A stretch of 43,210 nucleotides of DNA, taken from assembly GCA_937139405.1 (NCBI GenBank), contig CAKZPV010000009.1, positions 1-43,210 on the forward strand, given 5' to 3'. Of this stretch, positions 10,855 to 43,210 are shown one piece after another. The notes under the pieces are model-generated. The model was not told the DNA's origin. It ran no database searches and saw nothing but the letters and a program-made list of their open reading frames with translations. A program made the translations under genes and the position numbers. Origin of the DNA: an uncultured Nitrospirota bacterium (GTDB lineage Bacteria; Nitrospirota; Nitrospiria; Nitrospirales; UBA8639). Every line of letters begins with the position of its first letter. The stretch's first letter is position 1.

Positions 10855-10873
10855 GGCTAATTGTTTTGTGTAA

Positions 10874-10905
10874 CAAACATAGCGCGTGTCACACAAATAT
10901 GCAAA
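10874..10905 (-). promoter_or_regulatory. Bacteroidota-type promoter with TGTGTGACAC operator
   Basis: On the minus strand TTTG (10905-10902), 20 bases, TATGTTTG (10881-10874) matches the Bacteroidota -33/-7 consensus exactly. The spacer contains TGTGTGACACGCGC, shared with the promoter at 20115, and a second TTACACAAAAC lies just downstream of the -7 box. It drives the RHH gene and probably the whole early operon. Confidence 0.75.
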
Positions 10906-13709: not shown

Positions 13710-14705
13710 CTAAACCGTCGTGTTCACGATGATGTCATCATAGCGGCGAACAGCGAAGCCTGCGCTCCACTTGAAGCGAACCTTCAATTCTTCCGGGCTA
13801 TTCCCATAGCCAACAATGGCCTGAGGTCCTTTCTGGCCACGCACATCACTTCCCCAGATGAAGTTCTTAGGGCGGGTGATGATCACGGTGTCCGTTACTC
13901 CCATTTCAGGAGTTGGAACCAGAGTGATATTGCTACGGCCACGAAGGCGAGTGCGCTTGTACTTGTTGTTAATGAGCGCGTTAGCTCCAGAGTTTGCAGT
14001 CTGAAAATCCTCATTGTACTCGTCGTAGACATTCAGTGAACACAGAGCGAAAAGCTCAGTATTCAGGTGGCGCAATGGGATTTTCTTACCCATGTCCTCC
14101 AGTTTTTCGAAAACCAAACCAGAGCCTGAAAGGACGCCGGTATTGATTCTTTGAGCTACAGGAATATCATTTGCCGTGATAGCATCAGCTACGATTTTAA
14201 GAATCCCATCTACAGACTTGGACATGTCCTTGTCAAAAGCTGGATCATATACACCCTGAAACATGGCAAACAGCTTGAACTGTTCCATGATCTTGGCGAG
14301 CTGGCCCGTGTAATACCACTTTGCGAAAGGAATATCCTTGGCTGTAATGGTCTGGAAAAACTTGTGGGCTTCCTGACCATCGGGGTGCAGGTTGAGCCAG
14401 GTGTTCAGAAGGCTAACCGTATCAAGGTTAACATCCATTTTGGCGTCGCGCAGCTTGAGGCGATCGCCATCAAATTTGGTCGGTGCAGGTACTGCATCCC
14501 AAGTCACATCATAGGCAGATGCGGTGGCCGTGAATTCTGCACGAGCGAAATCCTGCTCATCGTTGATAAACCAACGATCAAACAGATGTTCGGCCTGAAG
14601 GGCCTCGCCCGTCCCAGTGTACATAGACTGGGTGTAGATCTCACGGTAGTGAGCGGTACGTGCATAGTCGCCAAGCTCTGCCTTTAGGGCGGTTACATTA
14701 TACAT
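13710..14705 (-). CDS. Major capsid protein, HK97-like
   Basis: A 331-residue soluble protein directly downstream of the protease-scaffold gene. It has the expected late-gene features: no cleavable signal, a long helix-rich middle (AKWYYTGQLAKIMEQFKLFAMFQGVYDP) and a C-terminal end SAGFAVRRYDDIIVNTTV, the beta-rich P-domain tail seen in many HK97-fold capsid proteins of Bacteroidota phages. It shares with the gene at 13131 an upstream leader ACACACxATTAATACCCA next to the ATG, fitting high expression, and ends at a strong UUCG terminator. The assignment comes from position and fold pattern. Confidence 0.75.
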   Translation of the reverse strand: MYNVTALKAELGDYARTAHYREIYTQSMYTGTGEALQAEHLFDRWFINDEQDFARAEFTATASAYDVTWDAVPAPTKFDGDRLKLRDAKMDVNLDTVSLLNTWLNLHPDGQEAHKFFQTITAKDIPFAKWYYTGQLAKIMEQFKLFAMFQGVYDPAFDKDMSKSVDGILKIVADAITANDIPVAQRINTGVLSGSGLVFEKLEDMGKKIPLRHLNTELFALCSLNVYDEYNEDFQTANSGANALINNKYKRTRLRGRSNITLVPTPEMGVTDTVIITRPKNFIWGSDVRGQKGPQAIVGYGNSPEELKVRFKWSAGFAVRRYDDIIVNTTV

Positions 14706-17880: not shown

Positions 17881-18433
17881 GACTTATATAGTGAAAATTA
17901 CAACAAATAATGTACCATTCGCTCATTTATGTATTTTTTGTGCATTTGGTAGCCATTTTGTAAAAAAAATTACCAAAAATGGCCGCATTACTATTCTGTC
18001 CGAGTCCGAGGGTTGCATGTCTACCCTATATAGGTGTCGAAAAATCAGAGAATCAGAGATTTTTTGTATAAAAAGCTAATAATCAGGTCTTTACGCCAAA
18101 TCAAATCAGAGAAAAAAAAGAGAAAAATCAGAGATTTTTGAAAATCACCCTTATTATTCTCTTTTATAGAGAAAAATATATATAACAGATAATTGTCTTT
18201 TTCGTGCAAATGAGGCTGTTTTTTCGCCTTTTCTCGGAAAATCTCTTGTTTTCTCCATTTTTCTCGAAAAATCTCTGATTTTGTCCGAGCCTTATTTATT
18301 GATAGTCAGGGAGTTACATAAAAAAATCTCTGATTCTCTGATTTTTCAGACACATCGGGTGTCCAGAGTGAAAGCTCGGACAGAATTTTCTAACAGTGTT
18401 AAGTGTGTAATCAAACGAGATTGAGCTGAGCAC
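17881..18433. other. Gene-free AT-rich region, candidate replication origin
   Basis: No credible gene is present on either strand from 17881 to 18493. The stretch is markedly AT-rich. A 27-bp perfect inverted repeat lies at 18039-18065 and 18321-18347, extended by GTGTC/GACAC at its outer ends. Inside it are two further palindromic units, AAAAATC-AGA-GATTTTT (18123-18139) and AAAAATC-TCT-GATTTT (18266-18281). TGTCCGAG occurs at 17998 (doubled) and 18282 and inverted at 18374; GCCATTTT/AAAATGGC arms lie at 17952-17983; CCTATATAGG lies at 18025-18034. Repeated palindromes in AT-rich DNA are typical of origins or clustered operators. Confidence 0.5.
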
Positions 18434-18467
18434 AAAAAAAAGCCCCCTACCCCGTCGGGCAGGAGGC
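18434..18467 (-). terminator. Terminator after the membrane-protein gene at 18494
   Basis: Read leftward, GCCTCCTGCCC-GACG-GGGTAGGGGGC followed by eight T residues is a strong GC-rich intrinsic terminator closing the 19.45-kb cassette. Confidence 0.85.
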
Positions 18468-18493
18468 TCTCATTTTCATAAAGAACGCCGAAA

Positions 18494-19021
18494 TCAATTC
18501 TTAATATCCATCTGGGCCTGTTTATAGGCCAAGGCATATATTTTCTGAAAGGTTTTATCAGGGATGTATTCGTCCTCATGATGGCTATGCCATTCAGCTC
18601 CTAAAAGATCATCAACAGTTATCTCAGAAAGCTCGGGCCTTTCTTTAAACCGTTGAGTCAAATCCTTACGAATGATTGGTTTCCATATTAAGAGCCTCAT
18701 GGCCCTGAATGCTCGTACTGGTATCCAGAGCCATTTCCCGTTTTGGTATTTATGATACTGCCCAATGGCGTAAGGGATCAGTATCAAAGGCATTACAATT
18801 GCACAAACCGGAATCGAGAAGGCAATTATAAAATCCACGTATGTTGCTTCCATACATGCTGTAACCAGTGCTGTAGCTGCTTTGTAAATTAGGAACCCGG
18901 CGGCCCCTACTACACTCATGCTGATTAGTATCAGCGTCGTTGCCACGTTCAAAACACTATCTGTGTTTCGATGATAGACGCCTGCTGGACAAATGCAGTC
19001 GTCATATTCCTCCTGGCTCAC
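18494..19021 (-). CDS. Membrane protein (175 aa)
   Basis: A short N-terminal part with cysteines (YDDCICPAGVYHR) is followed by two hydrophobic helices, at about residues 27-52 (TLILISMSVVGAAGFLIYKAATAL) and 62-88 (FIIAFSIPVCAIVMPLILIPYAIG). A basic segment (VRAFRAMRLLIWKPIIRKDL) and a charged soluble C-terminal domain follow. The topology suggests an inner-membrane protein with a cytoplasmic tail, such as a superinfection-exclusion or other lysogenic-conversion product. It overlaps the upstream small gene by four bases and shares its promoter and terminator in a self-contained cassette. Confidence 0.65.
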   Translation of the reverse strand: MSQEEYDDCICPAGVYHRNTDSVLNVATTLILISMSVVGAAGFLIYKAATALVTACMEATYVDFIIAFSIPVCAIVMPLILIPYAIGQYHKYQNGKWLWIPVRAFRAMRLLIWKPIIRKDLTQRFKERPELSEITVDDLLGAEWHSHHEDEYIPDKTFQKIYALAYKQAQMDIKN

Positions 19022-19278
19022 TTGGTTGTGGCCTTTTGGATGGCGAAGGCCTCCAGGCTGTTGTGTACAGCAAGGAGATGGTCACTCATTTCGATCCTGT
19101 CCCCTTCTGTCCCGAAGGGGCTGGCCAGGATGGCCCTCGTGGCAGGAAGGAGTTGCTTGGCCAGGCCCAAGGCGCCGGAGCGATCGTCGCCCCACAGGTC
19201 ATCGAAATACTGAGATAAGGGATGGTCCAGATGGTTAGCATCCTGGACATGGTCAGAGTTTTGTTTTTTGTTACTCAT
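19018..19278 (-). CDS. Hypothetical protein under a structured leader (86 aa)
   Basis: Not recognised. It begins MSNKKQNSDHVQDANHLDHP and is acidic and helical (LWGDDRSGALGLAKQLLPATRAIL, MSDHLLAVHNSLEAFAIQ). No membrane segment is present. An in-frame start at 19374 would add 32 residues, but that stretch spans the leader hairpins, so ATG 19278 is chosen. The bases just before this ATG (TTTCTCCGCCAA) are copy C of the repeated leader element. A 16-codon upstream frame (19321-19271) starts in the GCAA hairpin and its stop overlaps this start. It precedes the membrane protein with a four-base overlap. Confidence 0.55.
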   Translation of the reverse strand: MSNKKQNSDHVQDANHLDHPLSQYFDDLWGDDRSGALGLAKQLLPATRAILASPFGTEGDRIEMSDHLLAVHNSLEAFAIQKATTK

Positions 19279-19442
19279 TTGGCGGAGAAAGTATATTGTT
19301 AAACAAAGAAAAAGGGGGCATTGCTGCCCTTTCTCCGCCAAAGAGTTACCCACCCGGAAGGTAGGAGACAACAAGCCCCCTCTCGGGTTTAATTAAAAAT
19401 GTAGTTGGGATTTTATCCCGGTTGAGTTCTTTGGCGGAGAAA
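19278..19442 (-). promoter_or_regulatory. 5' leader with three repeated elements forming alternative hairpins
   Basis: In transcript order (minus strand) the leader has A = TTTCTCCGCCAAAGA (19442-19428), B = its exact complement (19344-19330), and C = TTTCTCCGCCAAA (19290-19278), which runs into the ATG. B can pair with A (15 bp) or with C (13 bp), but not both. Between B and C lies GGGCA-GCAA-UGCCC followed by CCUUUUUC, a terminator-like GNRA hairpin. B:C pairing would bury the start codon, and A:B pairing would free it. The structure is inferred from sequence. Confidence 0.6.
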
Positions 19443-19448
19443 CTGATG

Positions 19449-19480
19449 TAAAAGTAGGTAGCGTGTAACAAAAAAGCAAA
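19449..19480 (-). promoter_or_regulatory. Bacteroidota-type promoter with TGTTACAC operator
   Basis: TTTG (19480-19477), 20 bases, TACTTTTA (19456-19449), with TGTTACACGC in the spacer at the same place as in the promoters at 10874 and 20115. Its -33 box lies within the stem of the preceding terminator. Transcription would begin about at leader copy A. Confidence 0.65.
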
Positions 19481-19502
19481 CCCCCAATGAAAGGGGCTTG
19501 CT
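19469..19502 (-). terminator. Terminator after the membrane-protein gene at 19578
   Basis: Read leftward, AGCAAGCCCC, a seven-base loop, GGGGGTTTGCT and then TTTTTTG form a strong intrinsic terminator. It overlaps the next promoter, a compact cassette boundary. Confidence 0.8.
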
Positions 19503-20090: not shown

Positions 20091-20114
20091 GGGTGGTTGC
20101 TTTTTTGTGTGGAA

Positions 20115-20146
20115 TAAAACTAGCGCGTGTTACACAAAAAAGCAAA
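20115..20146 (-). promoter_or_regulatory. Bacteroidota-type promoter with TGTGTAACAC operator
   Basis: TTTG (20146-20143), 20 bases, TAGTTTTA (20122-20115). The spacer sequence TGTGTAACACGCGC differs by one base from that of the early promoter at 10874, so the two very likely share a repressor. Confidence 0.7.
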
Positions 20147-20273: not shown

Positions 20274-20591
20274 TTAAGGTTTTTGGGTGTCAAGAACGCC
20301 TCGGTTCTTGCGATCGTTGGTTCGTTTGTTAAGCCACATTAGTGCTTCTTCGAGTTTTGTAATGGTACAAGCATTTTCCTTGCAGGAGAGCTTTTCTCTC
20401 TGAAGGTACTGCAGCCTGGAGATGAGCATTTCCAGGACTTCCTCATTGGTCGTTCCATTTTGGACCGTCTCATATCTGGCTTCATCATCAGCCGCTGGTT
20501 CTTTCTTTATAAACTTCAGCTGCTGCGTTGGAGCGCAATCCAAGTCAAGATTCTCGAGTTCGTAGGTGTAGCCTTCATCAATGATTTTCAT
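20274..20591 (-). CDS. Acb2/Tad1 hairpin-domain protein, putative anti-CBASS or anti-Thoeris factor
   Basis: A 105-residue protein. The first 45 residues (MKIIDEGYTYELENLD, QLKFIKKEP) form a beta-like lead-in, then GTTNEEVLEMLISRLQYLQ and CKENACTITKLEEALMWLNKRTNDRKNRGV form two helices. The second block is the signature I associate with the Acb2/Tad1 hairpin domain. Known members are phage sponges that bind cyclic oligonucleotides (Acb2, blocking CBASS) or gcADPR (Tad1, blocking Thoeris). The start at 20591 overlaps the upstream gene and fits the usual MKIIxEGYxYE beginning. The domain is recognised by pattern; which signal it binds is unknown. Confidence 0.7.
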   Translation of the reverse strand: MKIIDEGYTYELENLDLDCAPTQQLKFIKKEPAADDEARYETVQNGTTNEEVLEMLISRLQYLQREKLSCKENACTITKLEEALMWLNKRTNDRKNRGVLDTQKP

Positions 20592-20913
20592 GAGTAGGAT
20601 GTTTTTGGGTAATATTTGTTTCGACAATTTTTAATTGACCGTTGCCATATTGGCCAATCGCATATTGATCACCTGATAGGCCAAGCATTGGTATCACTGT
20701 AATGTTTTGGGTAATTGGGAGCGCAAACCCTTGTAAGGGACTGTTTTCTTTTGGATACTCAGGGGATAATTGATTTTTGAACTTTTCATAACTCTCCATT
20801 GATAGCATCACTTGAACATCACTTTTGGTTGGCATTGAAATTTCAAACCACTCCTTTTTTAATAGTGACTTTCCATCTTTCCTATAAAATGAATTAGCAG
20901 AATCGGTATCCAT
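20578..20913 (-). CDS. Hypothetical protein upstream of the Acb2-like gene (111 aa)
   Basis: Not recognised. It begins MDTDSANSFYRKDGKSLLKKEWFEISMP and has a central part KSDVQVMLSMESYEKFKNQLSPEYP and beta-like segments (FALPITQNITVIPMLGLSG). No signal or membrane segment is seen. It overlaps the Acb2-like gene by 14 bases, so the two are co-translated. A cognate role in anti-defence is possible from linkage alone. Confidence 0.6.
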   Translation of the reverse strand: MDTDSANSFYRKDGKSLLKKEWFEISMPTKSDVQVMLSMESYEKFKNQLSPEYPKENSPLQGFALPITQNITVIPMLGLSGDQYAIGQYGNGQLKIVETNITQKHPTHENH

Positions 20914-31394: not shown

Positions 31395-31413
31395 GTTACA
31401 CAATTAGTGTAAC
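31395..31413. promoter_or_regulatory. GTTACAC-N5-GTGTAAC palindromic operator
   Basis: A perfect inverted repeat with a five-base spacer between the tape-measure stop and the secreted-protein gene. Its half sites match the TGTnACAC boxes in four host-type promoters, so the same repressor could bind here. Confidence 0.5.
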
Positions 31414-31418
31414 ACGAT

Positions 31419-42958: not shown

Positions 42959-43210
42959 TTAATAAGTGAAGCCTGTCCAATGAATGAGCTTGCCTCTAAA
43001 GGGTTTGTCAAACCAAGCCCAAAAATCATCAAGCGATGCAAAGCCATCATTCTGCGCCAGCTGAAGTTGTGTAAATGGCGACTGGATAAAAGATTTTTCA
43101 AGCCCGTCTTTTGCGATCAATATTGTTCTCGTTACAGGATCCAAGAAGACTGGTTGTACCGCCTTGCATTCTCCTTCAAATATGCGGCGCTGGCGTTTCG
43201 TCCGGACGTG
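42959..43210 (-). CDS. Small unknown protein, C-terminal part; gene continues across the junction
   Basis: The coding frame enters from the end of the window (43210 equals 77 on the circle) and runs to the stop at 42959. It includes C-K-A-V-Q-P-V-F-L-D-P-V-T-R-T-I, then DGFASLDDFWAWFDKPFRGKLIHWTG. The C-terminal DDFWAWF...GKLIHWT pattern (Asp/aromatic then KLIHWT) is frequent in small ASCH-like phage proteins, a tentative link. A TTG at 43144 would give an N-terminally truncated form; the full start is the ATG at 197. It ends 11 bases before the next gene start. Confidence 0.75.
   Translation of the reverse strand, partial: HVRTKRQRRIFEGECKAVQPVFLDPVTRTILIAKDGLEKSFIQSPFTQLQLAQNDGFASLDDFWAWFDKPFRGKLIHWTGFTY
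43134..43210. repeat. Terminal direct repeat, identical to 1-77
   Basis: The last 77 bases equal the first 77 bases. Because a gene reads through the join, this is the assembly overlap of a circular or circularly permuted genome of 43133 bp, rather than a true short terminal repeat; a genuine terminal redundancy cannot be fully excluded. Confidence 0.9.

Follow-up and report, generated by a model that had tools for sequence, protein, structure and literature searches.

The predicted 5′ leader of a two-gene phage cassette carries three identical copies of one segment, arranged so that the middle, inverted copy (B) can pair either with the first copy (A), just behind the promoter, or with the last (C), which ends on the start codon. 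Folding calculations give two alternative helices, of which A:B leaves the start accessible and B:C hides it. The leader is interpreted here, tentatively and with somewhat less than even confidence, as a cis-acting translational start-codon mask that would be gated by A and on by default.

All elements lie on the minus strand, in the order promoter, A, B, hairpin (19329-19316) with its U-run, C, and AUG (19278-19276), followed by the cassette:

19449-19480, minus strand: Bacteroidota-type promoter TTTG-N20-TACTTTTA, a pattern match with predicted +1 at A19444
19428-19442, minus strand: segment A, 15 nt, +3 to +17 of the predicted transcript, exact complement of B
19345-19427, minus strand: A-B interior, 83 nt, with weak hairpins at 19407-19419 and 19352-19388
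19330-19344, minus strand: segment B, 15 nt, +101 to +115, able to pair with A or C
19308-19329, minus strand: GGGCA-GCAA-UGCCC hairpin plus CCUUUUUC, a weak terminator-like site with a 5-pair stem
19271-19321, minus strand: 16-codon upstream frame, starting in the hairpin, crossing C, and ending over the AUG as ATGAGTAA
19278-19290, minus strand: segment C, +155 to +167, direct repeat of A, its final base the A of AUG
19018-19278, minus strand: 86-aa orphan gene, coding signal +25 log2 odds from ATG 19278
18494-19021, minus strand: 175-aa orphan gene, its product membrane-like on account of hydrophobic stretches, with a GTGA overlap with the preceding gene
18438-18471, minus strand: strong predicted intrinsic terminator of 15 pairs, closing the cassette

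Phage, promoter, and cassette

The window, that is, the whole stretch of DNA analysed (43,210 nucleotides), is a circular molecule of 43133 bp, with bases 1-77 identical to 43134-43210. These 77-bp identical contig ends indicate a circular phage molecule that was assembled separately from the chromosome of its host; it is contig 9 of the 51-contig, 4.46 Mb assembly that was searched for repeats. The phage encodes a tyrosine integrase with arm and SAM-like domains of Bacteroidota type, and its terminase search returned distant relatives only, the nearest (23-28% identity) including phages of Polaribacter, Flavobacterium, and Bacteroides. From integrase and terminase, the window is read as the genome of a temperate phage with a Bacteroidota host; no close relative of it was found in the collections searched. 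An AT-rich cluster of AAAATCAGAGATTTTT repeats in both orientations occupies 18039-18347, its ends being 27-nt perfect inverted arms (18039-18065 and 18321-18347), and may be a replication origin or partition site.

The promoter fits the Bacteroidota consensus TTTG-N19/21-TAnnTTTG except for the last base (A for G), and its elements are positioned as in sigma-A promoters of this phylum, with TTTG at -33 and TAnnTTTG at -7. The pattern TTTG-N19/21-TANNTTTR has three matches in the window, against 0.9 expected. Since the flavobacterial -7 box occupies -12 to -5 (PMC9723704), we infer that transcription starts at the A of 19444, which gives a predicted leader of 166 nt, with the AUG beginning at +167. 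Two sister promoters of the same type have predicted leaders of 15 nt (early operon, +1 at 10869) and 20 nt (neighbouring gene, +1 at 20110), beside which the 166-nt predicted leader is an exception.

A palindromic motif, GTGTNACACG, is found at 10885-10894 (minus), 20126-20135 (minus), and 31407-31416 (plus), with a degenerate copy at 19462-19471 (minus). These sites lie in the promoter spacers of the early operon and of two neighbouring cassettes, and directly 5′ of the 31357 gene. The motif has 11 one-mismatch matches against 3.6 expected, and a longer form, TTTGTGTNACACGCG, has just two exact occurrences genome-wide, both in the phage. The motif resembles an operator for a phage regulator.

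In the cassette, the stop of the 86-aa gene overlaps the GTG start of the 175-aa gene. An N-terminal extension of the 86-aa frame from TTG 19374 was rejected, the in-frame upstream stretch having no coding signal (-8.1 log2 odds). A single-sequence model of the 86-aa protein consists of three helices (pLDDT 77) and gave no significant structural match in Foldseek; that of the 175-aa protein (pLDDT 57) was too poor for use. An earlier reading of the sequence alone (the sequence-only reading) had placed the promoter at 19449-19480 and the leader before a cassette of an unknown and a membrane protein; the promoter is plausible as a prediction from the Bacteroidota pattern, as are the cassette and the terminator behind it.

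Beside the cassettes, a 117-aa protein (20274-20627, minus) matches solved proteins of Tad1 (Thoeris anti-defence 1) in its C-terminal half, with a best E of 1.6e-13, and weakly matches the Pfam Acb2/Tad1 hairpin. Its gene is likely an anti-defence gene. Kinship of the 86-aa protein with this Tad1-like protein was considered and none was found.

Uniqueness and origin of the repeats

A and B are 100% complementary over 15 nt and exactly 83 nt apart, B and C pair perfectly over 14 nt (19278-19291 with 19329-19342) at a distance of 37 nt, and A and C are 13-bp direct repeats; all three copies are identical. The geometry first described, with A and B as exact complements about 83 nt apart and C touching the AUG at 19278, holds in all its coordinates. 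Exact copies of the 13-mer number three in the 4.46 Mb genome, all of them in the leader, and its one-mismatch matches are at background (11, where the reversed pattern has 10 matches in total). Exact 10-mer or 11-mer triples within 250 bp were absent from 20 Markov-3 random genomes, and 9-mer triples arose at 0.25 per genome (n=20); the window contains only the leader 13-mer triple and the AT-rich repeat cluster at 18.0-18.35 kb. The A/B/C triple is not due to chance.

Relatives of the leader DNA were sought in sequence collections that included the host and 50 relatives, and only the window itself or unrelated matches were returned. The same was true of the A-gap-B pattern in viral and genome contigs and of searches with the 331-aa ORF (13710-14705) and the operator pattern, and the searched collections held no relatives of the 86-aa and 175-aa proteins. 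A covariance model run over 396 Bacteroidota genomes found no leader copy beyond weak chance-like matches; the best other match (E 0.0012 for one genome) was rejected, the pairing there being that of an unrelated repeat of ACTCTGCG type.

Lying near a promoter and in both orientations, the three copies might also be DNA operators, at which a regulator would bind at promoter, leader, and gene start and act on transcription, perhaps by looping; the 13-mer is moreover a partial palindrome (TTTnnCnGnnAAA, 4/6 positions). This is decidedly unlikely, given that neither phage nor host contains a further copy of the 13-mer, that the phage promoters have a different operator-like motif, GTGTNACACG, and that an operator would not need the strict placement of C on the AUG.

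The simplest history suggested by the repeats would be an insertion or duplication within a short 5′ UTR that left copies at the promoter and at the AUG, with B inverted inside. Such a history would fit a later use of the repeats as a switch, and would fit just as well their having no use. In the latter case, a 13-bp 5′ UTR (TTTCTCCGCCAAA) would have been split by a 139-bp insert and duplicated as A and C, B would be an inverted copy made by template switching or a small element, and the pairing would be a by-product without regulatory role. A and C being direct repeats, their collapse would take out 152 bp and yield a 14-nt leader, AG-TTTCTCCGCCAA-ATG, similar in length to the 15- and 20-nt sister leaders, which makes this origin a serious rival. 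The lack of structure in the A-B interior (below) also agrees with it. Against it, nothing similar to the insert was found in the host or 50 relatives, clear mobile-element ends were not seen, and the three copies are still identical; a relic without function is judged somewhat unlikely.

Predicted folding and a candidate start-codon mask

In the full-length leader RNA, A:B forms with a probability of 0.96-0.99 and B:C with 0.01, the start accessibility being 0.70 and the B:C alternative lying about 5 kcal/mol above the A:B fold. Folding of successive prefixes shows A:B complete at about 110-120 nt, long before C is transcribed. Without A, B:C rises to 0.98 and start accessibility falls to 0.27. 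Trimming of the 5′ end reveals a sharp threshold, P(B:C) being 0.09 after the loss of 4 nt, 0.53 after 5 nt, and 0.95 after 6 nt. The B-to-C stretch folds with z -5.1 relative to shuffles.

These values were compared with 48 plausible minus-strand phage gene starts, in which each upstream 15-nt block was held unpaired in turn. The drop in start accessibility was 0.46 for the leader, the largest of the 48, the next being 0.27, and no dinucleotide shuffle of the leader, out of 200, reached its drop. Several results count against the start-mask reading: RNA reading through from upstream also contains A and folds mostly as A:B (0.88), in an energy scan of imperfect duplexes, bulged pairings included, the leader start ranks only 5th of 48, and the A-B interior lacks structure (below). 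In thermodynamic prediction, the two helices exclude each other and B:C hides the start, as in translational attenuators, and the proposal that B pairs with A or C, with B:C masking the start and A:B freeing it, is borne out in silico.

A temperature-dependent switch (RNA thermometer) was rejected, since the modelled start shows no change from 10 to 45 C. A more general scheme in which promoter spacers complementary to start regions would mask the starts in readthrough RNA was also rejected: exact complementarity between spacer and start extends over 14 nt in the neighbouring cassette and 11 nt in the leader, and is also found at the early promoter, but the duplex energies are unremarkable (ranks 2, 10, and 35 of 48). 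The 14-nt inverted repeat of the neighbouring cassette (20097-20110 and 20133-20146) joins its promoter (TTGCTTTTTTGTGT) to the first predicted transcript bases (ACACAAAAAAGCAA); in readthrough RNA that start would therefore be hidden, its modelled accessibility there being 0.26-0.30, versus 0.68, with energies unremarkable relative to other starts.

Bacteroidota start translation without Shine-Dalgarno pairing, and mRNA structure at the start codon therefore has unusual importance in them. In Prevotella bryantii, expression fell fivefold when a structure of only -5.2 kcal/mol covered the ribosome site, and a strong structure 20 bp upstream was not inhibitory (PMC3155529). Translation in Bacteroidota is sensitive to start-region structure (PMC3155529; PMC6847099). 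By the P. bryantii result, B:C should matter if formed, and A:B should be harmless.

For transcription of the leader, its use in the cell, the coupling of the two genes, and the trigger, we infer the following course. The 166-nt leader would control translation of the 86-aa gene through masking of its start codon, and the 175-aa membrane-protein gene would be controlled too, via the stop/start overlap. A would capture B as soon as B is made, so that C and the AUG stay open and the default is on; with A lost or occupied, B would pair with C, bury the AUG, and turn translation off. A might be lost through 5′ trimming of about 6 nt or initiation downstream of about +6, or be occupied by an RNA or protein on the first 17 nt, and some transcripts may also be lost at the terminator-like hairpin that separates B from C. 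No antisense promoter of TAnnTTTG type was found on the plus strand. In a fuller version, which is unlikely as a whole, the first 17 nt would be the safety catch of the start-codon mask: a transcript that loses or hides its 5′ end would silence itself, by a three-segment switch without leader peptide or small-molecule aptamer that was possibly born by insertion into a short 5′ UTR.

The A-B interior folds like its shuffles on both strands (z -0.74 and -0.13), so the structural signal stems from the three repeats. The logic of a riboswitch had been seen in the leader, and a long leader with a platform-like choice of pairings would suit one. This reading is unsupported, and a ligand-binding riboswitch is scarcely credible: the leader matches no Rfam family, any similarities lying far below threshold, neither strand of the interior shows more structure than its shuffles do, and the 396 Bacteroidota genomes hold no copy beyond the weak model matches. 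As a conserved structured aptamer was not found, the leader cannot be filed as a riboswitch.

The hairpin with its U-run was rightly placed between B and C, but it is not beyond chance, as short-stem terminators are near chance level and its folding is close to that of shuffles (z -0.28). That the promoter would yield a short noncoding RNA of about 135 nt, made of the A:B hairpin and this terminator, with the gene expressed by readthrough, is highly improbable. Promoter, stable hairpin, and U-run do follow in order, and 24 nt across the hairpin are similar to an unannotated site of a Microcystis phage, with a chance-level E of 0.9; the terminator stem, however, has only 5 pairs and is near chance expectation.

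The 16-codon frame from hairpin to AUG is likewise present, though without coding signal (log2 odds -2.0). It would be the candidate for a leader peptide of the ermC/tetQ type, and it lies downstream of B, so that it is unable to choose between A:B and B:C before C is made. An attenuator coupled to this frame, whose ribosomes would free C, or stall on it, and then pass on to the AUG, would fit its course from the hairpin across C to ATGAGTAA, but is very unlikely, given the position of the frame 3′ of B, the missing coding signal, and a start codon of its own partly within a stem. The translation coupling through this frame proposed in the sequence-only reading found no positive evidence.

Comparison with known systems

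Few RNA switches have, to our knowledge, been described in Bacteroidota phages. If the start-codon mask is real, it would show how about 160 nt, without any protein, can gate an accessory gene cassette of a phage, which would be on only while the 5′ end is intact.

In the hok/sok-type toxin mRNAs, 5′ elements have alternative pairings, loss of an end alters translatability, and a leader frame overlaps the gene. By prediction, the leader resembles them in all three respects; it differs in that no small toxin is encoded and loss of the end would close the start. In the pyrC start-site switching of enterics, masking of the start by a hairpin depends on a few 5′-terminal nucleotides, as predicted here, but the masked RNA is the longer one in pyrC and the shorter one in the leader, and the CTP-dependent start is a pyrC feature.

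The leader is also comparable to the 5′ leader of IS200 tnpA, where a stable 5′ stem-loop sequesters the ribosome-binding region (PMC12594629), except that here the competing segment A would open the start in the full-length RNA, and no transposase is involved. The ermC (Staphylococcus) and tetQ (Bacteroides) genes have translational attenuators, in which hiding of the start region depends on leader pairings that exclude each other (PMC5418344), and by prediction the phage leader likewise has exclusive pairings that decide start masking. In those systems the choice is made by a ribosome on the leader peptide, whereas here no frame lies over A and the default fold is open. As leader-peptide control is only hypothetical here, the leader cannot be classed as an ermC-type attenuator. 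By analogy, it would nevertheless work most like the ermC and tetQ attenuators, with a dependence on its 5′ nucleotides like that of pyrC.
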